DNA of 50,243 nt from Thermoanaerobacterales bacterium (lineage in GTDB: Bacteria > Bacillota > Desulfotomaculia > Desulfotomaculales > JASEER01), in the NCBI GenBank assembly GCA_030019475.1, contig JASEER010000016.1, positions 1-50,243 on the forward strand, read 5' to 3'. Positions 3,371 through 32,705 of this stretch are shown here, one piece after another (position 1 is the first letter of the stretch; each line of letters opens with the position of its first letter). The notes under the pieces were generated by a model. It was given only the letters and a program-made list of their open reading frames with translations, had not been told where the DNA came from and searched no databases. A program made the translations under genes and the position numbers.

Positions 3371-4835
3371 CCACGACCCGCAGGGCCGCAAGCTGTACGT
3401 CCTCGGCCGCCAGCGGCGCCCCCAGGGCCTTCTGTTCGTAAATATATTCTACCATTTCCGGGGTCACCTGTTCACCGGGGAGAATGAGCGGGTACCCCGG
3501 AGGGCTGATGCTCACCGTCTCGGCCGCCACCAGGCCCGCCGTTTCTTCAAGCGCCACCGTACGCTGGGGGGCCAGCCACGCCTCCCGGGGGGTCATACGC
3601 TTCGGCCCCGCCGCGGGCGGCACCGTGACGGGAACATCCCCGCTTTTGCACCGGCGCTGGGCGGCAATGGCCTCCACCTCCTCGCACAGGCGCCGGACAT
3701 CCTCTTTGCGCGTGCCGAGGCCCACCACCGCCAGGACGCCCTGGACGTCGCCCATCTCCACCTCGACCCCGGTGCGATGCAGGAGGCGCACCGTCCTGTA
3801 CCCGGTGATCCCGTACCCGCGAAGGGAGAAATAGACCTTGGTGGGGTCCTGCTCACCGCTCCGCGCCCTGAAAACCTCCACGCCTTCGGCGGACCCGAGC
3901 CGTTCGCGCAAGACGCCGGCCAGAGCCACCGCCCGGTCGACGAGGTCCCGCCCCCGGCGCGCCATCTGCCGCCGGGCGAGGTCCAGCGAGGCCATCAGGA
4001 GGTACGAAGGGCTGGAGGTCTGGAGCAGGGCCAGCGTCCGGGCGACGCGCCCGGCGTCCAGGCGGGGACCGGCCATGTGGAGCAGGGAGGCCTGGGTGAG
4101 GGCGCCGCCGAGCTTGTGCATGCTCTGTACGGCGGCATCGGCGCCGAGGGCCAGGGCGGCGGGAGGCATGTCGGGGTGGAAGGGCAGGTGCGGCCCGTGC
4201 GCCTCGTCCACCAGCAGGGGCAGCCCCCGGGAGTGAATGACGGCCGCCGCTTCGGCCGTGAGACCGGCCAGCCCGTGGTAGGTAGGGTGAACCGCCAGGC
4301 AGGCGGCGATGCCGGGGTCACCGTCCAGAGCGCGGGCCAGCGTAGCGGGGTCCGGCGCCCCGGGCAGGCCGAAGGCCGGCTCCGGCGACGGCGGCAGGAA
4401 GACCGGGTCGGCCCCCGACAGGACGAGGCCCGCCGCCACCGAGCGGTGAATGTGCCGGGGAAGGAGCAGCTTCTGTCCCGGGCGCAACGCGGCCAGGAGC
4501 AGCGCCTGAATCCCCGCCGTACTCCCGTTGACAAGGAAAAAAGTCCGGTCGGCGCCGTAAAGCGCGGCGGCAAGCGCCTGGGCCCGGGCGATGGGCCCGG
4601 ACGGGCGCGAAAGGTCGTCCAGCCCGGGGAGTTCGGTCAGGTCCAGGCCCAGGAGGTCACCTGCCGGGGCACGGAGGGCGGACGGTGCCGCCCGCCCTCC
4701 GGAATGCGCCGGGAAGTGCAGGCCGGCCACCGCGCGGCGGCGGTGGCGCCGCAGGGCCTCGAAGAGCGGTGCCCGTCTCTGGTCCATTGCACCACCCCAA
4801 AACGGTAAAAAGGGAGACTGGTTATCGTCTCCCAT
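3363..4835 (-). CDS. Orn/Lys/Arg decarboxylase family PLP enzyme
   Basis: The 490-residue protein belongs to the fold-type I PLP decarboxylases of ornithine, lysine and arginine, in the small version often found beside tmk in Firmicutes (YaaO/SpeA-like). The PLP lysine is K241 in SMHKLGG, the aspartate-histidine motif DEAHG is at 210-214, and NGSTAGIQA near 104 shapes the cofactor pocket. A C-terminal decarboxylase domain follows after about residue 380. The ATG at 4835 has AGAGG seven bases upstream. A second ATG at 4787 (MDQRRAPL), closer to where homologues often begin, is preceded by GGGGTGG and is the alternative. Substrate cannot be told from sequence, though arginine or lysine is likely and would feed polyamine synthesis. 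It lies 73 bases after korD with no clear terminator between. Confidence 0.9.
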   Translation of the reverse strand: MGDDNQSPFLPFWGGAMDQRRAPLFEALRRHRRRAVAGLHFPAHSGGRAAPSALRAPAGDLLGLDLTELPGLDDLSRPSGPIARAQALAAALYGADRTFFLVNGSTAGIQALLLAALRPGQKLLLPRHIHRSVAAGLVLSGADPVFLPPSPEPAFGLPGAPDPATLARALDGDPGIAACLAVHPTYHGLAGLTAEAAAVIHSRGLPLLVDEAHGPHLPFHPDMPPAALALGADAAVQSMHKLGGALTQASLLHMAGPRLDAGRVARTLALLQTSSPSYLLMASLDLARRQMARRGRDLVDRAVALAGVLRERLGSAEGVEVFRARSGEQDPTKVYFSLRGYGITGYRTVRLLHRTGVEVEMGDVQGVLAVVGLGTRKEDVRRLCEEVEAIAAQRRCKSGDVPVTVPPAAGPKRMTPREAWLAPQRTVALEETAGLVAAETVSISPPGYPLILPGEQVTPEMVEYIYEQKALGAPLAAEDVQLAALRVVDG

Positions 4836-4908
4836 GATGCTGCCTCTCAACTTTCAACCGCCAACCGCCCAACCGGCGAAGGATCGGGAACCTGTGGCTT
4901 CGCCCGCG

Positions 4909-5223
4909 TTAGTGCAGCGGCCGCTCCTCGTGCGGCTCCTCCTTCAGGGGTTTGGTCCCCAAATCCTTGCGCGCCGGCGGCCCCTGCCCGTTACGCCCGA
5001 TAAGGATGGCACAGTCCGGGCAGACCGCGGCGCAGATGCCGCAGGCGATGCAGTTTTCGTCGGGCTCCACCGAAGGGGTGCCGTAGATGCCGAGCACCTT
5101 GGACCAGCCCAGACTGTTCTTCGGACACTTCTGGATACAGAGTCCGCATCCCTTGCACAAGCCGGGGAAAACGGTGAAGACTCCTTTGTTGAATTTGAAC
5201 ATGACTGGTTCAAACCCGTGCAC
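4909..5223 (-). CDS. korD: 2-oxoacid:ferredoxin oxidoreductase delta subunit (2[4Fe-4S] ferredoxin)
   Basis: A 104-residue ferredoxin-type subunit with two cluster-binding motifs: C23, C26, C29 and C33, then C58, C61, C64 and C68 (plus C71). It would carry electrons from the TPP-dependent catalytic subunits to free ferredoxin. The start is GTG at 5223, chosen because an exact AGGAGG lies eight bases upstream. A later in-frame ATG (residue 8) has no such site. The first 14 bases overlap korC. Together with korC, korB and korA just upstream it completes a four-subunit enzyme. The hydrophilic, charged C-terminal tail after residue 80 is an extension beyond the cluster domain. Confidence 0.92.
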   Translation of the reverse strand: MHGFEPVMFKFNKGVFTVFPGLCKGCGLCIQKCPKNSLGWSKVLGIYGTPSVEPDENCIACGICAAVCPDCAILIGRNGQGPPARKDLGTKPLKEEPHEERPLH

Positions 5224-5803
5224 CCGCTTGACCTCCTCGCATGACCTGCCCTACCAGTTCCATGCCCCGTTCCATAGCGCGGTAGTTCAATTCTCTCAGC
5301 TTGGGATCCTTGGCAAACTTGTAGCCCAGCCGTTTTTCAATGGCTTTCTTGGCGCTGTCAACGGCCACCACGCCCGAAGCCTGGATCACGGCCCCCATAA
5401 TCAAAACGTTGAAAACCCGGGGGTGCAGTTCTTTCTTGGCCACCTCCACGCCCGGGATGGCGAGGACCTGCCGCGCCTCTTTCGGCAAATCTTCGGGCGA
5501 GGGTTCAGCCATTGTATCATAAACGTAGAGCGTCTCCGGCCCGGCGTAATGCGTGGTCCGGGGAACGGCCCGCTCGCTCAGGGCGACCACGATATCCCCT
5601 TTTTCGAACTTCGGGGCCCCGATGGGGCCGTCGCTGATCTGCAGGAAGGCCACCGAGACGCCGCCCCGCTGTTCGACGCCGAAGTTCGGGATGTAGAGCG
5701 CCTCCCGCCCCTCTTCGTAGGCCGCCTCGGCCAGAATCTCGGCCACCGCCTGGACCCCCTGGCCCCCCTCGCCGGCAATGACGATCTTTACTGTCTTAGC
5801 CAT
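5210..5803 (-). CDS. korC: 2-oxoacid:ferredoxin oxidoreductase gamma subunit
   Basis: The 197-residue subunit has the typical gamma-subunit opening IVIAGEGGQGVQ and the NFGVEQRGG segment of the 2-oxoglutarate/2-oxoacid oxidoreductase family, in which gamma helps bind coenzyme A. I place the start at the ATG at 5803 (MAKTVKI), which has AAGGGG six bases upstream and overlaps korB by 8 bases. An ATG two codons earlier is possible. A much longer in-frame reading into korB is rejected as out-of-frame korB sequence. The gene order korA-korB-korC-korD with overlaps at the last two junctions implies stoichiometric expression. Confidence 0.93.
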   Translation of the reverse strand: MAKTVKIVIAGEGGQGVQAVAEILAEAAYEEGREALYIPNFGVEQRGGVSVAFLQISDGPIGAPKFEKGDIVVALSERAVPRTTHYAGPETLYVYDTMAEPSPEDLPKEARQVLAIPGVEVAKKELHPRVFNVLIMGAVIQASGVVAVDSAKKAIEKRLGYKFAKDPKLRELNYRAMERGMELVGQVMRGGQAGARV

Positions 5804-9906: not shown

Positions 9907-11301
9907 CTAAGCTTCCCCGGCGGCACCGTCCCCAACACACCGGACCTGCCAGGGACCGGGGGCGATCTCCGCCATAACCTGTTCCAGGAAAGCCCGGTTC
10001 TCCGGGCGGTCTACCATGTCGTGGACAAAAGAGTCGTTGAACCGCAGAACCAGGCGCCCGGGCTCGATGTGGACCGCCGCCGCCCGGGCCAAAAAGCCCC
10101 CGATCGAGGGTCTCTTTTGGCGGACGGCCGCCAGGAGCGCCGCCCAGACCTCCTCCTTCCGCCGCACGCCGCCCCCCGGCGAGGGTACGTGCCCCGGCTG
10201 TTCTTTCCCGGGTTCCCGCGCGCGCTCGGGGCCTGCCGCCTGTCCTCCCTCCTCGTCCCGGCCGCGGACCAGGCGGACCGTCGCCAGTTCCAGGGGCAGG
10301 ATCTGCCGGCCGGCCTGGCGCATCTCCTGCTCGGCGCGGGCGAACAGGGTCAGGGCGTCCAGGAGCCCTCCCTCGCCCAGGCGCGGGTAAGGGCATTGGC
10401 CGCTGTCAAGGGTTTGAAGCAGCAGTTCCCGCAGGTGGTCGGTCAACTCACGGGCGAAGATCCGCAGGTCCTTGCCGGCGGCCTCGACCCCGTGCAGGCG
10501 GTGCAGGGCCGCCCCGGCATTGCCGGCATCCAGGTCGGCCATAAAGCCGGCCAGGACCTCCTGCGTGACGGTGCCCAGGATGGCGTGAACGTCTTCCAGG
10601 CGCACGGCGCCGTCGCCCAGGGCGGCCACCTGGTCCAGGACGCCGAGGGCGTCCCGCAGGCTGCCGTCGGCGACGCGGATGATCAAGGACCAAACCCCCT
10701 CTTCCACGGTGAGCCCGGCGCCGGCGGCGATGTGCTCCAGGCGGGCCCGCATCTCCCGCGGGCCGATGCGCCGGAAGTCGAAGCGCTGGCAGCGGGAGCT
10801 GATGGTCAGGGGGATCTTGTGCGGTTCGGTAGTGGCCAGGATGAACACGACGTGCGCGGGCGGCTCCTCCAGGGTCTTCAGCAGGGCGTTGAAGGCCTCG
10901 TTGGTGAGCATGTGGACCTCGTCGATGATGTAGACCTTGTAGGGCATGGCCGCGGGCCGGAACTTGACCTTCTCCCGCAGGTCGCGCACCTCGTCCACGC
11001 CGCGGTTGGAGGCGGCGTCGATCTCCAGGAAGTCGACGGCCGTCCCCTCGTTGATGGCGCGGCAGGACGGGCACTCGTTGCAGGGCTCGGCGCCGTCATC
11101 CCGCCGGGGGCAGTTGAGGGCCTTGGCCAGGACCTTGGCCGCGCTGGTCTTGCCGGTGCCCCGCGGGCCGCAAAAAAGATAGGCGTGGGCGTGCTTGCCC
11201 AGCCGCACGGCGTTGGCCAGGGTACGGGTGACGTGTTCCTGCCCGACGATCTCGCCGAAGGTCCGCGGGCGCCAGGCACGGTAAAGGGCCTGATAACTCA
11301 T
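9907..11301 (-). CDS. dnaX: DNA polymerase III gamma/tau subunit
   Basis: The 464-residue clamp-loader ATPase has Walker A GPRGTGKT at 45-52, zinc-binding cysteines at C64, C74, C77 and C80, and Walker B IIDEVH at 125-130. A LEEPPAH sensor-1 region follows. At 464 residues it is short for a tau protein, with only about 100 residues beyond the oligomerisation domain. No A- or T-rich slippery tract suggesting programmed frameshifting is evident. ATG at 11301 follows GAGGAAGG. Upstream genes have been displaced: the SRP RNA normally next to dnaX now lies about 9.5 kb away, beyond the hdr and small-protein operons. Confidence 0.97.
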   Translation of the reverse strand: MSYQALYRAWRPRTFGEIVGQEHVTRTLANAVRLGKHAHAYLFCGPRGTGKTSAAKVLAKALNCPRRDDGAEPCNECPSCRAINEGTAVDFLEIDAASNRGVDEVRDLREKVKFRPAAMPYKVYIIDEVHMLTNEAFNALLKTLEEPPAHVVFILATTEPHKIPLTISSRCQRFDFRRIGPREMRARLEHIAAGAGLTVEEGVWSLIIRVADGSLRDALGVLDQVAALGDGAVRLEDVHAILGTVTQEVLAGFMADLDAGNAGAALHRLHGVEAAGKDLRIFARELTDHLRELLLQTLDSGQCPYPRLGEGGLLDALTLFARAEQEMRQAGRQILPLELATVRLVRGRDEEGGQAAGPERAREPGKEQPGHVPSPGGGVRRKEEVWAALLAAVRQKRPSIGGFLARAAAVHIEPGRLVLRFNDSFVHDMVDRPENRAFLEQVMAEIAPGPWQVRCVGDGAAGEA

Positions 11302-11587
11302 CCTTCCTCGTCACCTTCCCCTACAAGGTTAACATGGCCTTCCATGTCCGGTCAAGGAAGGCCGGAGCGGTCGCCGGTCGTCAGGTGTCGGAGGGTAAGA
11401 ACCTGGGGAGATGGTCAGGGGTGTTCCCCTCCACTTCCCAGTCCAGCACTCAACTTTGTACTTCGGTTGAATTGCAAACCTAAGTACAGACGGCTTTCCG
11501 ACCATCCCTGAACCTTTCCCTCTGCCCCCACTTCCCACATCCCACTTCTCGCTTCTCACTATCACCTCCCGCCTCTCACCTCTCACA
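11302..11587. repeat. CT/GA-rich intergenic repeat tract between dnaX and hdrA
   Basis: No gene is visible in these 286 bases. They hold repeated variants of CACTTCCCAC, CACTTCTC and CACCTCTCAC between about 11425 and 11600, the same low-complexity family found at 34905-35075, 35285-35335 and 45540-45650. Near 11457-11488 there is a 12-bp inverted repeat with one mismatch and an 8-base loop (TGTACTT core). Around 11368-11395 there are GGTCG/GTCGG-type repeats. The last hdrA bases run into the tract. Confidence 0.6.
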
Positions 11588-14500
11588 TCACACCTCACAC
11601 CCCAGCACCGCGTCGATCATCGCGAAGATCTGCCCGTCCTCGAACCCCTGCTGCTGGCAGGCCCCGCTCGGGCAGGCGGCGACGCAGGAACCGCAGCCGC
11701 GGCAGAGGACCTCGTGCACCACGCTGATCCCGCGCTCCCGGTCGACTTCCCGCGCCCCGTAGGGACAGACCGGGACGCAGATCCCGCAGCCGGTGCAACG
11801 CTCGGGGTCCACCGTGACGATGTTGCGCTCGCTCTCGAGCTCACCGCGGGCCAGCAGGGTCACGGCGCGCATGGCCGCCGCCTGGGCCTGGCTGATGCTC
11901 TCGGAGAGGGTCTTCGGGGCGTGGGCCATGCCGCAGAGGTATAGCCCCTCGGTGGGGAAATCCACCGGCCGGAGCTTGGCGTGGGCCTCGGCAAAGAAGC
12001 CCTCCGGTGTCAGCGGGACGCGGAACAGCCGCGCCAGCTCCTGCGCGTCCGGGCGAGGGACGACGCCCGTGCCGAGCACAACGAGGTCGGCGTCCAGGGC
12101 CAACTCCGCCTCCAGGACGGGGTCGTAGGCGCGGACAACCAGTTTCCCGTCCCCGCCCTCCGCCACGGACGGCATCCGGTCCGAGTCGTAGCGGATGAAG
12201 AGGACGCCCTTCTCCCGCGCCCGGCGGTAGTACCGCTCCTGGAAGCCGTAGGTGCGCATGTCCCGGTAGAGGACGACCACCCCGATGCGCGGGGACAGCT
12301 CCTTCAGGTGAAGGGCGTTCTTGACCGCCTGGCCGCAGCAGACCCGGCTGCAGTATGGCCGCTCCCCGTCCCGGGAGCCCACGCACTGGATCATGACCAC
12401 GCGCCCGACGCCCCGCACCCGCCCGGCGTTCAGGCGACCCTCCAGCTCGGTCTGGGTGATGACGCCCGGGTGGGCGCCGTAGAGGTACTCCCCCCGCGGG
12501 CGGTACTCGGCCGCCCCGGTGGCCAGGATGGCCACGCCGTGGGTTATCTCCCGGACCATGTCCCCCTGGCGGACCAGGGTGCGGAACCGGCCCGTGTAGC
12601 CGCCGACCGCATCCACCGTGCTCCCGGTGAGGACCTCGATCCCCGGGTGCCGCTCAACGCGAGCCGTCAGGTCGAAGAGCAGGGCCTGGGGATCGCCCCC
12701 GGCCAGGGTCCGGGCCAGCCGCAGGAGGTTGCCCCCGAGGAGCTGGTCACGCTCCACCAGCGTCACCGGGAAGCCCTGGTCGGCCAGGGCCAGGGCGGCG
12801 GTCATCCCCGCCGCGCCCCCGCCGACGACCAGGGCCCGGGGCTCGACCGGGGTCAAGCGGGTGGTCACAGGTTTCAAGAGCCGCGCCTTGCCGACCGCCA
12901 TGCGGACCAGATCCCAGCCCTTCTCGGTCGCCCGCTCCGGCTCCTGCCGGTGCACCCAGGCCACGTGCTCCCGCAGGTTCACATGCTCGTAGAGGCTCGG
13001 GTTCAGGCCGGCCTCACGCAGCCCGGACTGGAAAAGGGGGGCGTGGGTGCGGGGGGTACAGGAGGCCACCACCACGCGGTTGAGGTCCTGTTCCCGGACG
13101 CGCTCGGCGATGCGGCCGATGCTGTCCTGCGAGCAGGCGAAGAGGAACTCCTCCGTCCAGACCACGCCGGGCAGCCCGGCGGCGCGCCGGACCAACTCGG
13201 GAACATCCACGACGCTCCCGATGTTCAGCCCGCAGTGGCAGACAAAGACCCCGATCCGCGGCTCCTCCCGGCTTACGTCCCGCTCGGGCGGGTAGACCTT
13301 CCGCGCCGTCAGAGAGCCCCGGGCGGGGGCCAGCAGGCGCGAGACGTTGGCGGCGGCCGCGGAGGCCTCGACCACCGTCTCCGGGATATCCTTCGGCCCG
13401 GTGAGCACCCCGCCGGCGAAGACCCCCGGGCGGGAGGTCAGGCCGGGATATAGCTCCCAGGTCTCGGCGAACCCGTACTCGTTCAGGGCGAACCCCGCCG
13501 CCCGCGCCAGGTCGCGCACGCCGGCCGCGGGGCGCAGCCCGAGGGCCAGGACCACCAGGTCGAACTCCTCCTCCACGTACCCGCCCCCGGGGGCGTGGTA
13601 GCGCAGGAGTAGGTTACGGCTGTGCGGCGCTTCTTTGACGGTGGAGATCAGGCTCCTGACATACCGCACCCCCTGCTCCAGCGCCCGCCGGTAGTAGCCC
13701 TCGAAGCCCTTGCCGAAGGCGCGGACGTCGGCGCAGAAGACCGCGGTCTCAACCTCCGGCAGGTGCTCGGCGGCCACCACCGCCTGCTTCGCCGTGTACA
13801 TGCAGCACACCGCCGAGCAGTACTCCTGGCCCCCGGCGACATCCCGGGAGCCCACGCACTGGATGAAGGCGATCCGGCGCGGCTCCCTGCCGTCCGAGGG
13901 CCGCACCAGGTGCCCGCCGGTCGGCCCCGAGGCCGAGAGCATCCGCTCGAACTGCAGGGAGGTGACCACGTTGGGATACTGGCCGTAACCGAACTCCGGC
14001 CGCTGCCGCGGGTCGAAGAGGTCGTAGCCCGGGCTGACGATCAGGGCGCCCACCGACAGCTCGACCTCGGTGTCCCACATAAACGGGTCGATCGCCCCGG
14101 CGGTGCAGGCCTCCGTGCACTCCACGCACTCCGGGCAGTGGAGCATGTCGATGGCGAAGGCGTTGGGGACGGCCTGGGCGTAAGGGCGGAAAATGGCCTT
14201 GCGCCGGCTCAAGCCCTCGTCGAACTCGTCGACGACCTCGATCGGACAGGCCGCTTCACAGTCCCCGCACCCCTTGCACTTCTCAATATCCACGTAGCGC
14301 GCCCGCCGCCGCAGGCGTACCTTGAAGTTTCCGACCTCGCCGCGGACACTTCGCAGCTCGGTGCCGGTCAACACCGTAACGTTCGGGTGCCGGTCGCAGT
14401 CCACCAGGCGGGGAGCCAGCGTGCACATCGAACAGTCGTTGGTGGGGAAGGTCTTGTCAAGCTGGGCCATCCGGCCCCCGATGGCGGGCTGACGCTCCAC

Positions 14501-23807: not shown

Positions 23808-25022
23808 CTACTCAAAACGCAGGGCCTCGATGGGGTCGGCGCCGGCAGCCTTGCGGGCCGGCCAATAGCCGAAGAAAACCCCCACCAGGGCGGAAAAACC
23901 GATGGCCAGCACGATCGCGCCGGCCGAGATCACCGTGGGCCAGCCGGCCACCTGCGAAACAACCTTACTCCCGACAACCCCTGTAACCATGCCGATCACC
24001 CCGCCGGCCAGGCTCAGCACCAGGGCTTCGATGAGAAACTGCGTCAGGATCGCCCCGCCGGTGGCGCCCACGGCCATGCGGATCCCGATCTCCTTGGTGC
24101 GTTCGGTGACCGAAACCAGCATAATGTTCATAATCCCGATGCCGCCCACCAGCAAGGACACCCCGGCGACGCTGGCCAGCAGGAGGGTCATGATCCTCGT
24201 GGTGTCTTCGACGGTTTCCATCAACGAGGTCATGTTCTGGATCGTGAAGTCGTCTTCCTGCTGATCGCTGAGGCGGTGCCTCTGTCGCAAGAGGGAAGCC
24301 ACTTCTTCCTCGACCGTGGCCAGGCTCATCTCGTCCTGCGCCTGGACATTGATCATACGGACATACCTTTCACCCGTGAAGCGTATCTGCGCGGTGGTAA
24401 TGGGAATATAGGCCACGTCGTCCTGGTCGGCGCCCCCCATGCCGCCGCCCTGGGAAGCCAGGACGCCGACCACAGTGAACTCAAGGTTGTTGAGACGGAC
24501 CGTGGCGCCAACCGGATTCGTTCCCCGGGGGAAAAGGTTTTCTACCACCGTCTGCCCGAGGACGGTTACCAGGGCCGCCCGGTCAACATCTTCTGCGGAG
24601 AAAAAAGAACCTGATTCCAAGGACAGGCTCTTGATCTCCTGGTAGGATTCAGTCGTTCCCGTTACATTGGTCGTCCAAGTCTGGCTCCCGGCAGTAAAAA
24701 CAACCGACTGACTGGTTTCCGGCGCCACGTTCTGCACCAGAGGCAGGTCTTGAATGGCCTCCGCATCATCCATGGTCAGGCTCATGGAGGCACTGCCGGC
24801 GCTGCGGACAGGGCCCCATCCGGTCCCCGGCCTGACCATCAGCAGATTCGACCCCATGCTGGCGATGCGATCGGTCACCTGTTTACCGGCCCCCTGGCCG
24901 ACGCTGATCATGACGATCACCGCCGCCACACCGATGATGATGCCCAGCGCCGTCAACAGCGAACGCATTTTATTGGCCATCAGGCCCCGCCAGGCTACGG
25001 CCAGGGCCGCCCGGAAACTCAT
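23808..25022 (-). CDS. MacB-type ABC transporter permease
   Basis: A 404-residue FtsX/MacB-family permease. One membrane segment near residues 20-42 (SLLTALGIIIGVAAVIVMIS) is followed by a large extracytoplasmic MacB core domain, to about residue 270. Three C-terminal membrane segments come next, with the conserved VTERTKEIGIRMAVGA cytoplasmic loop, and the protein ends in ARKAAGADPIEALRFE. MacB permeases do not span substrates through the membrane but drive the adaptor and outer tunnel mechanically. Its ATG overlaps the ATPase stop by four bases (ATGA). With the adaptor and the TolC-like protein upstream it completes a tripartite efflux system. Substrate unknown. Confidence 0.93.
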   Translation of the reverse strand: MSFRAALAVAWRGLMANKMRSLLTALGIIIGVAAVIVMISVGQGAGKQVTDRIASMGSNLLMVRPGTGWGPVRSAGSASMSLTMDDAEAIQDLPLVQNVAPETSQSVVFTAGSQTWTTNVTGTTESYQEIKSLSLESGSFFSAEDVDRAALVTVLGQTVVENLFPRGTNPVGATVRLNNLEFTVVGVLASQGGGMGGADQDDVAYIPITTAQIRFTGERYVRMINVQAQDEMSLATVEEEVASLLRQRHRLSDQQEDDFTIQNMTSLMETVEDTTRIMTLLLASVAGVSLLVGGIGIMNIMLVSVTERTKEIGIRMAVGATGGAILTQFLIEALVLSLAGGVIGMVTGVVGSKVVSQVAGWPTVISAGAIVLAIGFSALVGVFFGYWPARKAAGADPIEALRFE

Positions 25023-25768
25023 GCACAGACCTCCTTTTGAGCAACGGCCGCCAATTCTTCCGCCGCCTGCCGCGGCTTTTCCAGCACCCTGTCTTCTATG
25101 ACTGTCCCGTCCCGCAGGCGGATCAACCGCTGGCAGTAGGCAGCGATATCGGGTTCGTGAGTGACGATGACGATGGTGAGTCCCTGTTCCCTGTGCAAAT
25201 TCTGCAGCAGGGCCATCATTTCAATGCTGGTCCTGGTATCCAGAGCGCCGGTGGGTTCATCGGCCAGGATTATGGCCGGCTGATTAATCAGGGCGCGGGC
25301 AATGGCCACCCTTTGCTGCTGGCCGCCGGATAACTGGTTGGGCAGATGCCGTTCCCGCCCCTGTAACCCCACTTGCTGCAGGGCTGCCCAAGCCCTGGCC
25401 TTCATCTCGCTTTTGGCGACACCGGCATAAATCAGTGGCAGACAGACGTTCTCCCAGGCCATGGTATTCCTCAACAGGTTAAAGCTTTGAAACACAAAAC
25501 CAATGCGGCGGTTGCGGATCTCGGCCAATTCATCCCGCGTCAGCTTACTTACATCCCGGCCGTTCAACAGGTATTCTCCGCTTGTGGGACGGTCAAGACA
25601 CCCCACGATGTTCATCAGGGTGGACTTGCCCGACCCCGACGACCCCATAATCGCCACCATTTCTCCCGGGGATACGGTCAAGTCGACCCCCCTTAAGGCG
25701 TGTACCTGCATATCCCCTGTGACGTAGACTTTGGTTACCTGGTTGAGCTGGATGACGGGGTTACCCAT
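25019..25768 (-). CDS. MacB/LolD-type ABC transporter ATPase
   Basis: The 249-residue ATPase has Walker [10 protein letters not shown] at 42-50, signature LSGGQQQR at 146-153 and Walker B ILADEP at 167-172. It also has the FQSFNLL Q-loop segment typical of the MacB/LolD/FtsE group. ATG at 25768. It lies 6 bases after the adaptor gene and overlaps the permease gene by four bases. The split ATPase and permease correspond to the two halves of the fused Gram-negative MacB. Confidence 0.95.
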
Positions 25769-25774
25769 GATCCC

Positions 25775-27391
25775 TTACCTCCCCATCATTGGTGGGCCCA
25801 TCGGTTGCATCTGTCTCGTCGTCGTTGATCTACCGCTCGTACCGCTGCTCGTTGCCTGTTTTTCGGTACTGGCGCCAATGATGACCTGTTCGCCAACATC
25901 CAGTCCGCTGATGACTTCGATGTTGCTGGCATCGCTTAAACCTGTCACAATGTGCCGTAGCTGCGGGCGTCCATTTTCCAGGACCAGCACTGTGGCCTGT
26001 TTACCGTTACCCTCAGCACCCTCTCCCTGCTTCGGCTCAACGCTGCCAGTCGCGCCGCCAGGCGCTGCTTCCATACGAGCGCGGACCTGTTCACGAGTAA
26101 CCGTCGCCTTGCCGCTGCCAGGCTCACCACCAGGTACTGCCCCTGTCGTCTTGCCGCTGCCGGTCGCCGGCCGTGTTCCGCCCTCGTTGCCACCCGAAGC
26201 TGCTATGGCCTGATTTTTGGCCGCGTACGTAATGGCCGCTTGGGGAATGGTAATAACATCGTCCTTCTGGTTAACGATAATCCTGACACTCGCCGACATG
26301 CCGGCCTTGAGAAGTTGATCGGGATCGTCCACGGAAGCATCCACATCATACAACTGCACGTTGCTTTCCGTCGTCGCTTCGGCGGCGATGCGGGTCACCT
26401 TGCCCGTAAAGGTCCTCTCAGGGTAAGCATTGACGGTAAAGGTCACCGTTTGGCCGACTTTGGCGCGGCCGATGTCGGCCTCGTTGACCTGGATGGACAG
26501 CCGCAGGTCCGAGGTCAGCAGGGATATAAAACCGTTGGTCGTGTCATCGTTGCTGCCGCCGCCGCTGATGTGCTGGCCCACCTCACCTTCGACGTCCGTC
26601 ACGAATCCGTTCCATGGAGCACGCAGTTCGGCGGCGTCGAGGTTGTTCTGCGCCTCCTGCAAACCGGCAAGTGCGCCCTGAACCTGAGCTTCGGCGGCGG
26701 CCAGATCTTCCGGTTGAGTGCCTTCCTGAAGTTCTTTCAGGGCCGCCTTCGCGTAGCGCAACTTCGCGGCGGCCGCGTCACGGTCGGCAACGGACCTGTC
26801 CAGATCGGCCCGGGTCAGAAAACCGGCCTCAAAGAGGGCTTGATTCGCTTTCAGGGTCTCTTCGGCATTATGGTACGTACTTTGGGCTTCGATCAGATCC
26901 GCCTCCGCCTGGGCCAGTTCGGTAGCCTTGGGTCCGGCCTGCAGCTTGCGCAGCTCCGCCAGATTGGCCTCATAGTTCGCTTTGGCTTGGGCCAGTTCCG
27001 CCTCCAAACTCGAAGTGTCAAGGCACGCCAACAGTTCTCCGGCCTTGACGTAATCGCCGGGTTTAACAAAAATCGCTGCAATTTTGCCGCTGTTTTGAAA
27101 GTTTAAACCGATACTTTTTTGCGCCTCAACCATTCCTGTGGCGCTAATCGACTCGACGATACTACCCTGGCTCGCAGGCATCGTCATATACTTTGCCTGG
27201 GCTTCCCCGCCAAGCCACCGGTATCCGACCCCGGCCCCCAGAACGGCCAAAAATCCGAGAATGATGAACAGTTTTCGCCGCGGCTGCCGCCTGAAAAAAG
27301 GCAGCGCTTTCGCCGCGGCGGCCCGTATACTCAAAAGCCGTCCTCGCACGCCGCGTCCTGACTCTGTCGGCAGTGAACCTTCCGAAACCAA
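25775..27391 (-). CDS. MacA-like periplasmic-adaptor (HlyD family) efflux protein
   Basis: A 538-residue membrane-fusion protein. It has an N-terminal membrane anchor (LFIILGFLAVLGAGVGY, near 40-57), a lipoyl half-motif SATGMVEAQKSIGL, and a long coiled-coil hairpin (about residues 125-260). Then come the second lipoyl half and beta-barrel domains. A low-complexity Gly/Thr/Ala insert lies near 415-480, and the tail ends MGPPMMGR. The start is TTG at 27391, with AGGGGG nine bases upstream. It lies 84 bases after the TolC-like gene and 6 before the ATPase. It is larger than Gram-negative MacA (about 370) because of the insert and hairpin. Confidence 0.9.
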   Translation of the reverse strand: MVSEGSLPTESGRGVRGRLLSIRAAAAKALPFFRRQPRRKLFIILGFLAVLGAGVGYRWLGGEAQAKYMTMPASQGSIVESISATGMVEAQKSIGLNFQNSGKIAAIFVKPGDYVKAGELLACLDTSSLEAELAQAKANYEANLAELRKLQAGPKATELAQAEADLIEAQSTYHNAEETLKANQALFEAGFLTRADLDRSVADRDAAAAKLRYAKAALKELQEGTQPEDLAAAEAQVQGALAGLQEAQNNLDAAELRAPWNGFVTDVEGEVGQHISGGGSNDDTTNGFISLLTSDLRLSIQVNEADIGRAKVGQTVTFTVNAYPERTFTGKVTRIAAEATTESNVQLYDVDASVDDPDQLLKAGMSASVRIIVNQKDDVITIPQAAITYAAKNQAIAASGGNEGGTRPATGSGKTTGAVPGGEPGSGKATVTREQVRARMEAAPGGATGSVEPKQGEGAEGNGKQATVLVLENGRPQLRHIVTGLSDASNIEVISGLDVGEQVIIGASTEKQATSSGTSGRSTTTRQMQPMGPPMMGR

Positions 27392-27475: not shown

Positions 27476-28576
27476 CTAGCTATACGATGCCGCCCAGGGT
27501 TTTTCAAACAGCCGCTTGTTGTATGCGTACTGGATGGCCGTCTGCTTCAACGACAGCCTGGCCTCGGCCAGGGCCGCCTCGGCCTCCGTCACTTCGGCCG
27601 CCGTGGCCAAACCTGACCGCTGCAGGATCTGCTTGACCCGGAGGTCGGCCTCCGCCACCGCGATGTTCTTTTCGGCCAGGGCGTAGGACCGCTCCAGTTC
27701 CTGGAGGGTGTAGTAAAGGTTTCGCATCTGCAGCCGTACCGCGTCCTTGGCATTCTTCACGTCGAGTTCGGCCTGCTCCACCTCCTCGTCCTCCGCCGCG
27801 TCCCAGTAGGACAGGTCTTCCGTGTACTTGGCGTTCTGCTCGGCGATCCACACGGAAGGGCTCTCATCCAGGACCCGGTTGACCTCGGCCTCCAGGTTGT
27901 CCACCGCCAGCGGCGAGAACTCCACGTCATCCGCCAACGCCGGCCGGTCGGTCAGGGATAAACCCACCAGTTGATCGAACTGTATGTAGGCCGTCTCCAC
28001 GCCGTTTTTGGCCGCGTCCAGGTCGCCCTGCGCCTTGAGCAGCGCCTTCTCGGCCGCGTCCAGGCTCATGACCGTCTTCCCGCCCAGGGTCACCGAGGAG
28101 CCGTACTTGCTGACCAGCCCGCGGTCGTAGACGATACGGGTCTTGCCCAGGTCCAGCTCGGCCTTTTTCACGGCCGCTTCCGCGGCGGCCACCTTCTCCT
28201 GCGCCTCGAGAATGCCCCAGTACAGCTGACACGCCTTCAGGGTCACGCCATCCAGGGCGGCATCGTAGTTTTTCTTCGCCTTCTGCCACCCCAGGTCGGC
28301 CTGGAGTACCGCGGCCCACGCCGCGTCCATGTCACTGCCGTCGCTGTAGACGTCCTCGACCACGGTGTCGTACCTGTCCTCCGCTTTATCGTATGAGGAT
28401 TCGGCCCTGTCGATTTCCAGCTCCGCCTTCTGGGCCGCGATGCTGTACTTGACGGCCATAGCAATCGCTTGGTTAAGCGTAAGGCCGGATGGTGTGGCTT
28501 CCCCGGCCCAGGCAACCCCCGGGCCGGAAAGCCCGAAACAGGTAATGAGAACCAATGAAATCAACTTCTTTAGCAC
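27476..28576 (-). CDS. TolC-family protein
   Basis: A 366-residue exported protein with a Sec signal peptide (LKKLISLVLITCFGLSG, then AWA cleavage near residue 24) and long heptad-rich helices (AEAAVKKAELDLGKTR, AEAALAEARLSLKQTA) as in TolC/CusC-type outer-membrane tunnels. I start at GTG 28576, because GGAGGTGG lies just upstream; an ATG seven codons earlier precedes that site. It is shorter than Gram-negative TolC (about 430-490), and no clear beta-barrel segment is seen, so it may be a coiled-coil tunnel without an outer-membrane barrel. It is probably first in the efflux operon apart from the gtrA relic. Confidence 0.85.
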   Translation of the reverse strand: MLKKLISLVLITCFGLSGPGVAWAGEATPSGLTLNQAIAMAVKYSIAAQKAELEIDRAESSYDKAEDRYDTVVEDVYSDGSDMDAAWAAVLQADLGWQKAKKNYDAALDGVTLKACQLYWGILEAQEKVAAAEAAVKKAELDLGKTRIVYDRGLVSKYGSSVTLGGKTVMSLDAAEKALLKAQGDLDAAKNGVETAYIQFDQLVGLSLTDRPALADDVEFSPLAVDNLEAEVNRVLDESPSVWIAEQNAKYTEDLSYWDAAEDEEVEQAELDVKNAKDAVRLQMRNLYYTLQELERSYALAEKNIAVAEADLRVKQILQRSGLATAAEVTEAEAALAEARLSLKQTAIQYAYNKRLFEKPWAASYS

Positions 28577-28675
28577 GCTACCCCACCTCCGTTCCATATT
28601 TCAGGGTTATCGATACGGCCATCGTCATCCTCAGCGCGCACCTGATCACCTTCCTTGGCATCCTTTACCAGTATT

Positions 28676-29091
28676 CTAGCTACGAGATATGACCTTGTTG
28701 TGGACAAAACGTGACAGCTCTGTGAACCCCAGCCCCCGAGACCTGGTCGCAGGTGGTTCAGCATCGCAAGGCATATGTTTTTCTTCTTGAGTCTTAATAG
28801 CAACATTTGATAAAACCTTGACCAGGTAACCAAACAACAACAAAAGGTAGTAGGCTGCAACGAACAGGATGTCCTCCGAGGCGTCGGCTTGGCCCGCCGC
28901 CCGGAAGGTCCATCGTCGATTGACGAAGATACTGTTGGCGATGCCGGCGCATAGGAAAGTGTCTGGGCCGGCAGGTACGGCACCCCGCCCAGAGTCAGCA
29001 GGAGAAAAGACGCCAAATCGACCTCCGTGTTGCCGACCCCGACGATGCAGAAGCGCAGGAACTGGACGGCTCCGTGCTTATTGCTGAACAT
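28676..29091 (-). pseudogene. frameshifted GtrA-family membrane protein
   Basis: The frame from ATG 29091 reads QFLRFCIVGVGNTEVDLAS and then FLLLTLGGVPYLPAQTLSYA, the first membrane half of GtrA-type polyprenyl-sugar translocation proteins. A one-base loss near 28948 puts the next part, AGIANSIFVNRRWTF and AAYYLLLLFGYLVKV, into another frame, which ends at 28676. The combined sequence gives the family's order (NSxxxNRRWTF after the second span), so the gene is a recent frameshift mutant and not a chance match. It lies between the operator array at 29145-29220 and the TolC gene, so it is still transcribed with the efflux operon. Confidence 0.75.
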
Positions 29092-29144: not shown

Positions 29145-29220
29145 ATAATACCCGCGCCGCCTGAATCGCCCCTTAACGGAAACTGAACGTTGATTGAATA
29201 CCGGCTGAGTGTACGCTGAA
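29145..29220 (-). promoter_or_regulatory. 11-bp-phased TTCAG array and -10 box upstream of gtrA relic/efflux operon
   Basis: Six consecutive 11-base units run from 29220 to 29155, beginning TTCAG, CTCAG, TTCAA, TTCAG, TTAAG and TTCAG, followed after four bases by TATTAT at 29150-29145. The same six-unit layout with the same -10 spacing is found at 30075-30150, and a four-unit version at 32650-32705 before the response regulator gene. Tandem half-sites with an 11-base period are the usual binding pattern of OmpR-family response regulators. Confidence 0.7.
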
Positions 29221-29268
29221 GGAGCATCTTGGGCCGCCCCGGAATGCCCGCCCGAGCATTAGACGAGC

Positions 29269-29297
29269 CAGGCAGCACCCGAAGCGAATGCTGCCTG
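29269..29297 (-). terminator. hairpin after the 186-aa lipoprotein gene
   Basis: CAGGCAGCA and TGCTGCCTG form a 9-bp stem with an 11-base loop about 45 bases after the stop codon. There is no U-run, so termination would be weak or factor-assisted. Confidence 0.4.
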
Positions 29298-29339
29298 CAC
29301 CACGAACCAACGGACAATATCCTTGATCGGCTTCTCCCC

Positions 29340-29900
29340 TCAGGAAGCCGGCGGCTCCGGCGGAGCCCCTTCACCCCTCTCCGGCCCCGCGTCCAACTTA
29401 TCAAGATCCATATTCTGTAATCCGGCCAATATGCTCCGGGCCTGCTCGGCGGTCATTTTCCCCTGGGCCACCTCTTCGTCCAGCCTTGCTTTTGTCTCGG
29501 CCAACAGTTTCTCCTTAAGCTGCGCCAGCGTCATCCCCTTGGCGGCGGCCAACTGCTCCAGGGTTTTCCCGGATTTCAACGCGGTCTGCAGTTCCTCGGC
29601 GGTCATGCCGAGAATCCCGGCTATGTCCTCCATCGGACCGCCCCGGGGACCGCCCCCCGGCACAGCGCCCTGCTTCGGCTGCCGATCCTGGTCGGCGGAG
29701 GCGGTGCCGCCGTCGTTGCCCGCCGCCGCCGGCTCTTCCGCCCGGCCGGTACCCGCATCCGAGGGCGCCTCGGAAACAACCGCCTGTTGCGAGGTATCGG
29801 TCGCCTGACCGCCGTCCGCGCCGGCATTGCTCTTACAACCCACCGACCCGAACAACAAAGCCACTGTCAGACCCAGGAGCAGCCACTTCTTTTTGTTCAT
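29340..29900 (-). CDS. putative lipoprotein of the two-component/efflux locus
   Basis: A 186-residue protein with signal peptide MNKKKWLLLGLTVALLF and lipobox SVGC (C22). A flexible Gly/Ala/Asp/Gln-rich linker runs to about residue 90. A helical region follows with MTAEELQTALKSGKTLEQLA and MTLAQLKEKLLAETKARLDE, two tandem copies of a helix motif also seen in SHOCT-like and heat-shock tail domains. A Pro-rich end closes it. ATG at 29900 is set by GGAGG seven bases upstream. A start 15 codons earlier lacks this. It lies between the array at 30075-30150, which probably drives it, and the efflux operon. A sensor accessory or substrate-binding role is possible but unproven. Confidence 0.8.
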   Translation of the reverse strand: MNKKKWLLLGLTVALLFGSVGCKSNAGADGGQATDTSQQAVVSEAPSDAGTGRAEEPAAAGNDGGTASADQDRQPKQGAVPGGGPRGGPMEDIAGILGMTAEELQTALKSGKTLEQLAAAKGMTLAQLKEKLLAETKARLDEEVAQGKMTAEQARSILAGLQNMDLDKLDAGPERGEGAPPEPPAS

Positions 29901-30074
29901 CTCCCAGCCTCCGAATTCCAACCTCCGATTGCCATCGCCGAACATCGTCGGACCCGGCCCGGATCACGCCGATAATGTCGCCCCTTTGCCGCGACCCGGC
30001 CGGCACAACAACCCTTTTGCAGAAAACACCTCCTGTCCCAAAGTCCACTGTGCCGCTTGTGTCCACCTTGCCAA

Positions 30075-30150
30075 ATAATACCCGCGTTGCCTGAATCATC
30101 CCTTAGCGAAAACTGAACATTGCTTGAAGTACGGCTGAACATCGGCTGAA
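30075..30150 (-). promoter_or_regulatory. 11-bp-phased TTCAG array and -10 box upstream of lipoprotein gene
   Basis: Six 11-base units from 30150 to 30085 begin TTCAG, TTCAG, TTCAA, TTCAG, CTAAG and TTCAG, followed after four bases by TATTAT at 30080-30075. Five of six units keep TTCA in exact phase. The arrangement is nearly superimposable on that at 29145-29220. The untranslated leader to the lipoprotein ATG is about 170 bases. Confidence 0.7.
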
Positions 30151-30163
30151 AATCGGGGGAACG

Positions 30164-30297
30164 CAAAAAGGGGCTGTTGAAAAACTTCGCCTGGCTTTGT
30201 CACGCTCGCCGCCCAGTACCCACGTACCACCCAGTACGCTCCGCGCTGGCTGGCTTCGCCTTCCGCGCCATGCTCGTTTTTGAACAGCCCCCGTTTT
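30164..30297. mobile_element. MITE-like element with 16-bp terminal inverted repeats
   Basis: GGGGCTGTTGAAAAAC at 30170-30185 is mirrored at 30276-30291 by GTTTTTGAACAGCCCC (one mismatch), flanked by A and T runs. The 90-base interior encodes no gene and has its own partial inverted repeats. The right-hand arm plus CCCC and TTTTT on the minus strand may end transcription of the two-component operon. A further copy of the arm (CTGTTGAAAAAAC on the minus strand) lies immediately to the right. The short hairpin at 8503-8525 looks like the two ends joined without an interior. Confidence 0.6.
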
Positions 30298-30375
30298 TTC
30301 AACAGGGCCAAAGCGGCATTCAAAGCGAATTCCGCTACCGTCGACAACAAATATGCATAACTAATCAGGAGACAT

Positions 30376-31923
30376 TTAAGTTACTGCGGGAAGCCGGATA
30401 TAAAACGTCGTTCCCTCTCCCTCCCGGCTTTCAACGCTCATGGTTCCGCCGTGCGCGCTGACGATGGCCTTGCTGATCGCCAGACCCAGACCCGCCCCGC
30501 CGTGTCTGCGCGTCCGGGAGGCGTCGCTGCGGTAAAAGCGGTCGAAGATATGGGGGAGATGATCGGCGCTGATCCCCGGTCCGTTATCCTGAACGGACAA
30601 TTGCACGCCGTCGCTCCCGGTCGACAGCGACAAGCGGATATGACCCCTTTCCGGATCCGTGTACTGCACCGCGTTGTGAAACAGATTCAAGATCACCTGT
30701 TTCATCTTGTCGGCGTTAAACCTGCACCTCACGTCCGGTTCGACCGACAGGTCAAGCCTCCTTTCGCCGGCCAGGATACGGAGCTGCGGCTCCATGTCCC
30801 GGATGAGGCCGTCCAGCAGACCTTCCGTGAGTTCGATGCGCGGTGCGCGGTCGAGTTTGGCCAGGAGAAGAAGGTCGTGTACCAGCTTGCTGAGCCGTTC
30901 CGATTCGCCGTGCATACTTTTGAGCGCCTTGTGCAGTTGATCCGGCTGATCCGCCGCGCCGCGCAGCAGTACTTCCAGGAAGCCGTGGATAGAGGTCAGC
31001 GGCGTGCGGAGTTCATGGGAGGCGTCGGCGATGAAGCGGCGCATCTGCTCCCTGGCTTCCCTTTCCGCGGCGAAGGAGGCCTCCAGCCGCTCCAGCATGC
31101 CGTTAAAGGATTCGGCCAAACGATCGATTTCCATCTGTCCCTGGCGGGTCGGGAAACGCCTGGCCAGGTTTCCGGCATCGATCTCTTCCGCGGTGTACAC
31201 CATATTGGATAAAGGAACCAGCGTTCTTCTGATCACCGGCATGAAGCCGAGCAGGCCGAACAGCATGGCGATGAGGGAAAGAAACGAAAAAGAAAGCAGT
31301 TGACGGACAAGCAGCTCCTTGAGCGGGCCCGTCAAGGTGCTTACTTGAACGACGCCCAGCGGCCGTCCGTGATCGAAAACCGGATGCAATACCACCAACT
31401 GCTCTGCTCCGCCTTCATCGACGATCCTGTAGTCCGGTCCCGGTTTTTTCCGTAAAACATCCGGACGCAGCGGCCGATCCGCTCCCGGAGGTTTTATGCC
31501 GCCGGCGCCGTCAACCGTTCCGCCGTTCGGCTCCGGGCTTTTCCGCAATACTTCCAGGTACTCCTGCTCGTCCAATCTCGGAGGGCTTTCGTCGCCAGGG
31601 CCGCTCGACAAAACGGCATAGTTGCCGTCGGCGTCCACGAAGGCCAGGTTCGCGCCGGGGACAAAAAAGAACGGCGGACGCCTATCGCCGTTTTCCCAAC
31701 CTGCGCCGAGAAGCCGCCAGGCATCCGGATGAACGGACATAATTTGGCTCAGCATGCTGGCGGCTTTGTTTCTGCAAATGACATCTCGCATAAAAGCATA
31801 TTGAAGCAAACCGATAAGGAAAAGCAAAACGGCGAGGATTAACAGCGAGCGGGACAGCAGTTGCGTCCGGAGTGAACCGGGGGCAAACAGGAGTCTGAAC
31901 CGCGTCCTTGCCCTTTGAATCAT
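30376..31923 (-). CDS. two-component sensor histidine kinase
   Basis: A 515-residue membrane kinase. Membrane segment 1 is near 26-44, an extracytoplasmic sensor region with Pro- and Gly-rich stretches runs to about 205, and segment 2 is near 208-230. A HAMP linker follows to about 285, then HisKA with the phosphorylated H303 in ASHELRTPL. The HATPase domain has the N-box NLFHNAVQYT, DNGPGIS and GGAGLGLAI. The start overlaps the response regulator stop by four bases (ATGA). The sensor region matches no domain I know. With the regulator it is expected to sense an envelope stress relieved by the neighbouring efflux pump. Confidence 0.93.
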   Translation of the reverse strand: MIQRARTRFRLLFAPGSLRTQLLSRSLLILAVLLFLIGLLQYAFMRDVICRNKAASMLSQIMSVHPDAWRLLGAGWENGDRRPPFFFVPGANLAFVDADGNYAVLSSGPGDESPPRLDEQEYLEVLRKSPEPNGGTVDGAGGIKPPGADRPLRPDVLRKKPGPDYRIVDEGGAEQLVVLHPVFDHGRPLGVVQVSTLTGPLKELLVRQLLSFSFLSLIAMLFGLLGFMPVIRRTLVPLSNMVYTAEEIDAGNLARRFPTRQGQMEIDRLAESFNGMLERLEASFAAEREAREQMRRFIADASHELRTPLTSIHGFLEVLLRGAADQPDQLHKALKSMHGESERLSKLVHDLLLLAKLDRAPRIELTEGLLDGLIRDMEPQLRILAGERRLDLSVEPDVRCRFNADKMKQVILNLFHNAVQYTDPERGHIRLSLSTGSDGVQLSVQDNGPGISADHLPHIFDRFYRSDASRTRRHGGAGLGLAISKAIVSAHGGTMSVESREGEGTTFYIRLPAVT

Positions 31924-32603
31924 GCCGGGTCAACCCGGTATCCTGATCCGCGAACAGTGCGTATCAATTGATGGTCTTTGTCTCCCAGCTTATCCCGTAA
32001 GGAGCGGACATACACCTCAACGATGTTTTCCTCGCCTCCGAAGTCATAACCCCATACCTTATCCAGAATCATTGCTTTACTCAAAACCAATCCGTGGTTG
32101 AGAACCAGGAATTTAAGGAGTTCGTACTCCGTCGGGGAGAGTTCCAGGGCGCGGTTTTCGAAGCGGATTTCCCTACGGCGGTCATCAATACGAAACGGCC
32201 CGATCACGACCTCTCCGAACAGATGCGGAAACTGGTTGCGGAGCCGGGCGTGAATCCTGGCCAGGAGTTCCTCGAAACTGAACGGTTTTACCATGTAATC
32301 ATCGGCTCCGAGATTAAGACCCTTCACCCGGTCATCCACTTCATCCCTGGCCGTGAGCATGATCACCGCCACATTGTCCATCTTCTTGATCATCCGGCAG
32401 ACTTCGAAGCCGTCCATTCCGGGCATCATAACATCAAGGATGACGACATGCGGCCGGAACTGCTTCAGCAGGGTGACGGCCCTCATACCGTCCTGGGCGC
32501 TTTGCACGGCGAACCCTTCGTTCTGCAGACCGATTTCCAGAAACTGCAGGATGTTGGGTTCATCGTCCACCAACAGTATTCTGATGCCGCTTAATTGCTG
32601 CAT
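31920..32603 (-). CDS. OmpR-family response regulator
   Basis: A 227-residue regulator. Its receiver domain has phospho-acceptor D57 in LDVMMPGMDG, the acidic pair in LVDDE and lysine in MVKPF. It is joined to a winged-helix DNA-binding domain (ELSPTEYELLKFLVLNHG, then YVRSLRDKLG and RTVRGSGYRVD). OmpR-type proteins bind direct repeats of about 10-11 bases. Such arrays lie directly upstream of this gene and of two neighbouring units, which suggests autoregulation and control of the efflux and lipoprotein genes. ATG at 32603. Confidence 0.95.
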   Translation of the reverse strand: MQQLSGIRILLVDDEPNILQFLEIGLQNEGFAVQSAQDGMRAVTLLKQFRPHVVILDVMMPGMDGFEVCRMIKKMDNVAVIMLTARDEVDDRVKGLNLGADDYMVKPFSFEELLARIHARLRNQFPHLFGEVVIGPFRIDDRRREIRFENRALELSPTEYELLKFLVLNHGLVLSKAMILDKVWGYDFGGEENIVEVYVRSLRDKLGDKDHQLIRTVRGSGYRVDPA

Positions 32604-32649
32604 TTCGGATCAGCACCCTTATGGTTATCCGTTAGACAGTACGGCAGTT

Positions 32650-32705
32650 ATATTATCCGGGTCTCAACTGAAATCCGGCTGAATACGACCTGAAAAGTTG
32701 TTGAA
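32650..32705 (-). promoter_or_regulatory. 11-bp-phased TTCAG array and -10 box upstream of response regulator gene
   Basis: Four consecutive 11-base units from 32705 to 32662 begin TTCAA, TTCAG, TTCAG and TTCAG, followed after six bases by TAATAT at 32655-32650, about 45 bases before the regulator start. Same half-site and period as the two longer arrays, hence a likely autoregulatory promoter. Confidence 0.7.

Follow-up and report, generated by a model that had tools for sequence, protein, structure and literature searches.

Phased TTCAG arrays as probable operators of an OmpR/PhoB-type two-component system with envelope targets in Bacillota

Introduction

At promoters controlled by PhoB the operator replaces the −35 element, a geometry that makes transcription dependent on the activator. 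PhoP of Mycobacterium tuberculosis binds 7-bp direct repeats separated by a 4-bp spacer, which amounts to an 11-bp period (PMC4832192). Here we analysed a stretch of 50,243 nt from a Thermoanaerobacterales bacterium (contig JASEER010000016.1 of GenBank assembly GCA_030019475.1, positions 1 to 50,243; hereafter the window), in which three arrays of TTCAG-type units repeated every 11 bp precede a response regulator gene, a lipoprotein gene and an exporter operon. On comparative sequence evidence it is highly likely that these arrays are tandem operators of the response regulator encoded at 31920-32603, acting in the circuit set out below. The regulon appears to be new and its type known, that of an OmpR/PhoB-type activator at tandem 11-bp direct repeats that replace the −35 element.

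The likeness to PhoP, the closest solved relative of the regulator, and to PhoB lies in the winged helix of the OmpR/PhoB family and in direct repeats at an 11-bp period. Unlike those systems, the arrays described here have a TTCAG half-site, contain four or six consecutive half-sites and precede targets unrelated to phosphate. In Bacillus subtilis ykcBC is under YclJ and YrkP (PMC5836110) and yngABC under YclJ (PMC7961091), the two regulons including YkcB (GT-C), YkcC (GT2), the GtrA flippase YngA and the UDP-glucose pyrophosphorylase YngB (PMC7961091, PMC5836110). Compared by regulon content only, YclJK and YrkPQ resemble the present system as small OmpR-family regulons, with arrays in relatives of the window's genome preceding GT39-GT2-GtrA-GalU/GalE genes; they differ in that the TTCAG arrays usually have four or six units and in that a MacAB-type exporter and lipoproteins are among the targets. 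In Clostridioides difficile the kinase HexK of HexRK is homologous to YrkQ, the kinase partner of YrkP, whose regulon includes YkcB and YkcC (PMC10128005). HexRK is likewise a two-component system over a small envelope-glycolipid operon, but its targets are HexSDF and no TTCAG array has been described for it. The exporter resembles MacAB-TolC in combining a MacA-like adaptor, a MacB-type ATPase and permease and a TolC-family protein in one operon, and differs from it in having MacB as two genes. The YclJ box is reportedly also an 11-bp repeat that starts with TTCA; our literature searches on TTCAG arrays with MacAB or Paenibacillus, on YvrHb and on the sequence of the YclJ box found nothing usable.

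A long and highly specific operator of fixed geometry would make it possible to read which genes an unstudied two-component system controls in many Bacillota, several of them poorly tractable anaerobes. It would tie a MacAB-type exporter, lipoproteins and YkcB/YkcC-type surface glycosylation to one regulator, and would offer both a comparative frame for the YclJ and YrkP regulons of B. subtilis and a defined promoter for signal screens.

Phased TTCAG arrays in the window

The three arrays of the window lie on the minus strand and were read there. Array A (29220 to 29145) consists of six 11-bp units followed by the −10 hexamer TATTAT (29150-29145) and scores 42.7 bits with a position weight matrix; its units, in order TTCAG, CTCAG, TTCAA, TTCAG, TTAAG and TTCAG, are perfect for TTCA in four of six cases and lie in the sequence TTCAGCGTACA CTCAGCCGGTA TTCAATCAACG TTCAGTTTCCG TTAAGGGGCGA TTCAGGCGGCG CGGG TATTAT. 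Array B (30150 to 30075; 40.6 bits) also has six units and the −10 hexamer TATTAT (30080-30075); five of the units are perfect, the remaining one being CTAAG, and the array ends in TTCAGGCAACG CGGG TATTAT. Array C (32705 to 32652; 37.2 bits) is made up of four perfect units (TTCAA, TTCAG, TTCAG, TTCAG) and ends in TTCAGTTGAGA CCCG GATAAT, with its −10 hexamer at 32657-32652. The phase between units is exactly 11 bp in all three. Direct reading thus agreed with the preliminary description, made from the window's sequence, in the number, size and position of the arrays and in the −10 hexamers of A and B; the hexamer that it gave for C, TAATAT, overlaps GATAAT, which we take as the −10 element because relatives fix GATAAT.

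Such an accumulation is far from the background, since the pattern TTCAN7TTCAN7TTCA with up to two mismatches matched 12 times in the window, where 1.1 matches were expected and none of 100 dinucleotide shuffles gave more than 4. Every perfect TTCA triple in the window's genome (2.28 Mb) fell within arrays B and C; with one mismatch allowed, array A joined them, as did array B in a second register and two isolated matches elsewhere. A promoter-shaped pattern with one mismatch retrieved A, B and C from the whole genome, together with two AT-rich matches lacking TTCAG, and no further convincing array was found in the genome with these patterns.

An alignment of arrays A and B extends over 83 bp, takes in the −10 hexamer and has approximately 80% identity (66 of 83 columns). 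They are therefore paralogous target promoters and do not count as independent evidence, array C being of another type; both also resemble the promoter of a GT39 gene in Desulforamulus putei (L012). The view that selection on spacing and not recent duplication had shaped the arrays accordingly holds for C against A and B, and for the relatives, and fails for A against B.

Regulator orthologues and promoter geometry

The response regulator gene (31920-32603, minus strand) encodes a 227-aa protein of the OmpR/PhoB family with a receiver domain (PF00072, 2e-32) and a winged-helix Trans_reg_C domain (PF00486, 1.4e-25). It is overlapped by the gene for a sensor histidine kinase (30376-31923, minus strand) with an N-terminal sensor region and HAMP, HisKA and HATPase domains (PF00672, PF00512, PF02518), so that the Pfam matches bear out the cognate pair proposed for this locus, and the pair is retained at orthologous loci. 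Among named genomes, 17 loci from across the Bacillota carried an orthologue of the regulator (67-91% identity, the close orthologue of Desulforamulus putei standing at 91%), with the kinase adjoining it in all 17. Strict arrays were present in 13 of the 17 loci, directly before the regulator in eight, and the matrix added sites in L020 and L024. TTCAG pairs upstream of the 17 orthologues were spaced by 11 (17 pairs), 22 (8) or 33 bp (3), with no other spacing occurring more than once.

The position of the −10 element proved equally regular. In 45 of 46 curated sites a hexamer nAnnnT begins exactly 15 bp downstream of the first base of the last TTCAG. The last unit in that table was in part picked by eye, and the safer figure comes from automated choice of the last unit, which placed the −10 element at +15 in 34 of 51 sites and at +26 in eight (shuffled maximum 8), the latter being sites with one extra degenerate unit. 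Unit number differed by promoter class, being usually four at regulator promoters and usually six at target promoters, where unit 5 is TTAAG and unit 3 often yTCAA. No −35 consensus was seen at the expected position of the array promoters; direct repeats at an 11-bp period instead lie beside the −10 element, in the arrangement of pho-box-like operators.

This geometry bears on the direction of control. Sequence alone cannot give that direction, and the regulator might repress the exporter and lipoprotein genes through the arrays; a last half-site 15 bp upstream of the −10 element, with no −35 consensus, is the activator-dependent geometry of PhoB promoters, and we regard repression as quite unlikely.

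Co-occurrence of arrays and regulator

We then considered 299 genomes of the phylum, counting as orthologues those regulators with at least 73% identity, the next matches being paralogues at 54%. An orthologue was present in 14 genomes, the window's own included. The pattern TTCAGN6TTCAN7TTCAG was found in 13 of these 14 genomes as opposed to 13 of the 285 without an orthologue (Fisher p = 7e-15), and a reversed control pattern matched in one genome. The motif search in related genomes that the preliminary description had suggested therefore shows arrays tracking the regulator. On inspection of the matches, the strict pattern had captured genuine promoter-type arrays in 11 of the 14 orthologue genomes; in G022 and G066 it had matched a minisatellite and sites that were coding or not promoters. 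The matrix located a real site before a GT39 gene in G022 (L158), and an array missed by the strict pattern is present in G119 (L148), the fourteenth orthologue genome. Arrays before unrelated genes in genomes lacking the regulator had been named as the outcome that would speak against the proposal, and 12 of the 13 non-orthologue matches turned out to be identical-unit minisatellites, to lie inside open reading frames (ORFs) or to lack a −10 element, so that the comparison does not speak against it. Minisatellites of 11-bp TTCAG units, perfect or nearly so and without connection to the regulator, were recorded in L135 (G156), L131 (G089) and G205:C140.

The existence of true 11-bp TTCAG minisatellites in unrelated genomes, together with the similarity of A and B, might be taken to mean that the arrays arose as minisatellites by tandem duplication, or as paralogous copies of promoters, and do not serve as operators. 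The units vary outside TTCAG and the phase, array C is distinct, the distance to the −10 element is fixed and unit-specific sequence is retained between genera, while Bacillota-wide conservation only alongside the regulator contradicts such an origin, which we consider scarcely credible. It is also very improbable that another OmpR-family regulator, either a paralogue or a YclJ/YrkP-like protein, binds the arrays and that the local regulator is merely one of its targets. That proposal draws on the membership of B. subtilis ykcBC in both the YclJ and the YrkP regulon (PMC5836110) and on an array preceding a second response regulator in G155 (L163). Against it, array presence follows this particular regulator across genomes, and its nearest paralogues differ in the recognition helix: ENIVEVY[IV]RSLR is kept in nearly all orthologues read, and the 54% paralogues, in whose loci no arrays were found, have RYLREKL where orthologues have RSLRxKL. 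One divergent orthologue, in L028, carries RYLREKL and is likewise without a clear array. Inspection of the non-orthologue matches, the paralogue loci and the helix comparison led us to reject both explanations largely.

Several observations weigh against assigning the arrays to this regulator. Neither pattern nor matrix revealed a clear array near the regulator in L016 and L028 (Paenibacillus), and in the matrix scan the site near the regulator was weak in L160 and absent in L196. The genome G140 has a promoter-like array and no orthologue. To these must be added the duplicate nature of A and B and the eye-picked part of the curated −10 table.

Held-out genomes and target classes

The matrix, built on other loci, was applied to a held-out set of 11 further genomes that belong to the same order and carry an orthologue. 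Sites in this set scored 28-47 bits, shuffled maxima being about 15 or less, and a site preceded the regulator in 10 of 11 genomes (none in L196). Sites were also found before MacA-ABC-FtsX genes in L195, L197, L199 and L200, before a lipoprotein gene followed by ABC-MacA-FtsX in L193, before GT39 genes in L192, L197, L198, L199 and L200 and before a GT2 gene in L194, with L199 holding all four branches. More broadly, arrays precede the regulator, MacA/ABC/FtsX operons, lipoprotein genes and YkcB-like glycosyltransferase genes in many genera. The arrangement described for the window, with arrays before the exporter operon that begins with a gtrA relic, the lipoprotein gene and the response regulator gene, was thus seen here and has counterparts in relatives, and the efflux, lipoprotein and autoregulation branches are conserved. 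Array C marks the predicted promoter of the response regulator gene by its position, and four-unit arrays likewise lie upstream of the regulator's own gene in many genomes with orthologues, as expected of autoregulation.

The glycosylation branch has a different history in this genome. A gtrA gene at 28570-29091 (minus strand), directly behind array A, matches Pfam GtrA in its N-terminal part only, residues 1-47 lying in one frame and about 26-78 in a second, with the rest lost; a match in two frames that then stops identifies it as a frameshifted, truncated pseudogene. No gene of the GT39 (PMT_2) family turned up when the window's genome was searched for one. YkcB/YkcC/GtrA-type genes do stand behind arrays in relatives, and GT39-GT2-GtrA genes lie behind the regulator-kinase pair or an array in L012, L014, L019, L150 and L161, so that the pseudogene, all that this genome keeps of them, appears to be the remnant of a YkcB/YkcC/GtrA glycosylation operon whose branch was lost here. 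The relic had been correctly noted before, and the branch behind it had gone unrecognised. In L014 (Thermoactinomyces daqus H-18, 10377-12456) the GT39 gene behind the array was read as two overlapping ORFs, probably through a frameshift or sequencing error.

Further array-led genes in relatives encode PepSY_TM, YceI, Trypsin-PDZ (HtrA-like), MBOAT and DUF4405/cytochrome b561-like proteins, mostly envelope functions. An HtrA-like Trypsin-PDZ protease lies directly behind an array in L018 (Paradesulfitobacterium, 4419-5774). The array before the second response regulator gene in G155 has five TTCAG units (L163:4966-5014) and possibly reflects a regulatory cascade.

Proposed mechanism

Very probably, then, the sequence here describes a small envelope circuit that regulates itself, with the arrays as landing sites of the regulator. 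The adjacent kinase presumably phosphorylates the regulator. Regulator monomers would bind head to tail along a single face of the DNA, each TTCAG half-site of the 11-bp repeat taking one of them, and cooperative binding would fill the array as far as the unit whose start lies 15 bp upstream of the −10 element. Because there is no −35 consensus, the regulator is predicted to take over recruitment of sigma-A RNA polymerase in place of a −35 box, as PhoB does at pho boxes. Transcripts from A, B and C would be expected to start some 7 bp past each −10 hexamer. The output would be autoactivation of regulator and kinase and induction of the lipoprotein and the TolC-MacA-ABC-FtsX exporter, with the YkcB/YkcC/GtrA operon for lipid-linked-sugar glycosylation as an additional output in relatives. 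Binding, phosphorylation and activation over repression are what we infer from the sequence comparisons, and the targets suggest an envelope-stress or antimicrobial signal.

As a wider interpretation, we think it reasonably probable that an uncharacterised two-component system shared by much of the Bacillota governs envelope defence, its regulon comprising a MacAB-type exporter, lipoproteins, lipid-linked sugar glycosylation and the system itself, through four- or six-unit arrays 15 bp from the −10 element, array length following promoter class. Regulon content would have been reshuffled between genera and the operator kept, the glycosylation branch being dead in the present genome. The circuit sketched in the preliminary description is largely supported by the arrays, their co-occurrence with the regulator and the target classes in relatives; to it we add that the arrays are conserved across the phylum, that the −10 element stands at a fixed distance, that the glycosylation branch was lost here and that A and B are duplicates.

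Genes behind arrays A and B

Array A is the predicted promoter of a minus-strand operon comprising the gtrA pseudogene and genes for TolC, MacA, ABC and FtsX proteins. The first intact gene (27476-28597, minus strand) encodes a TolC-family (OEP) protein (PF02321), followed on the same strand by genes for a MacA-like membrane fusion protein (25775-27391; HlyD_D23 and RND_mfp above cut-off), a separate MacB-type ABC ATPase (25019-25768; ABC_tran) and a MacB-type permease (23808-25022; MacB_PCD and FtsX in Pfam). MacB is split in two here and falls far below the NCBIfam MacB equivalog cut-off (966 bits). The ATPase is 57-59% and the permease 53-61% identical to the corresponding proteins encoded behind arrays in several relatives. 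TolC/OEP-family proteins occurred in 55 of the 60 genomes searched (the window's and same-order relatives), yet no Omp85 turned up in the window's genome, which makes an outer membrane unlikely there and presents a case of OEP proteins without an evident outer membrane.

The lipoprotein gene behind array B, its predicted promoter, (29340-29945, minus strand) was called mechanically as an ORF of 201 aa, and the 186 residues given for it previously are correct if the internal Met at 29900 is the start. Its product shares 36% identity over 153 aa with a homologue under an array in L199 and 42% over 43 aa with a secreted protein whose gene follows an array in Desulforamulus putei. An element resembling a miniature inverted-repeat transposable element (30155-30310) is located between array B and the kinase gene; it has the inverted ends GGGCTGTTGAAAAA...TTTTTGAACAGCCC, and five more sequences in the genome match it in part (70-93% identity).

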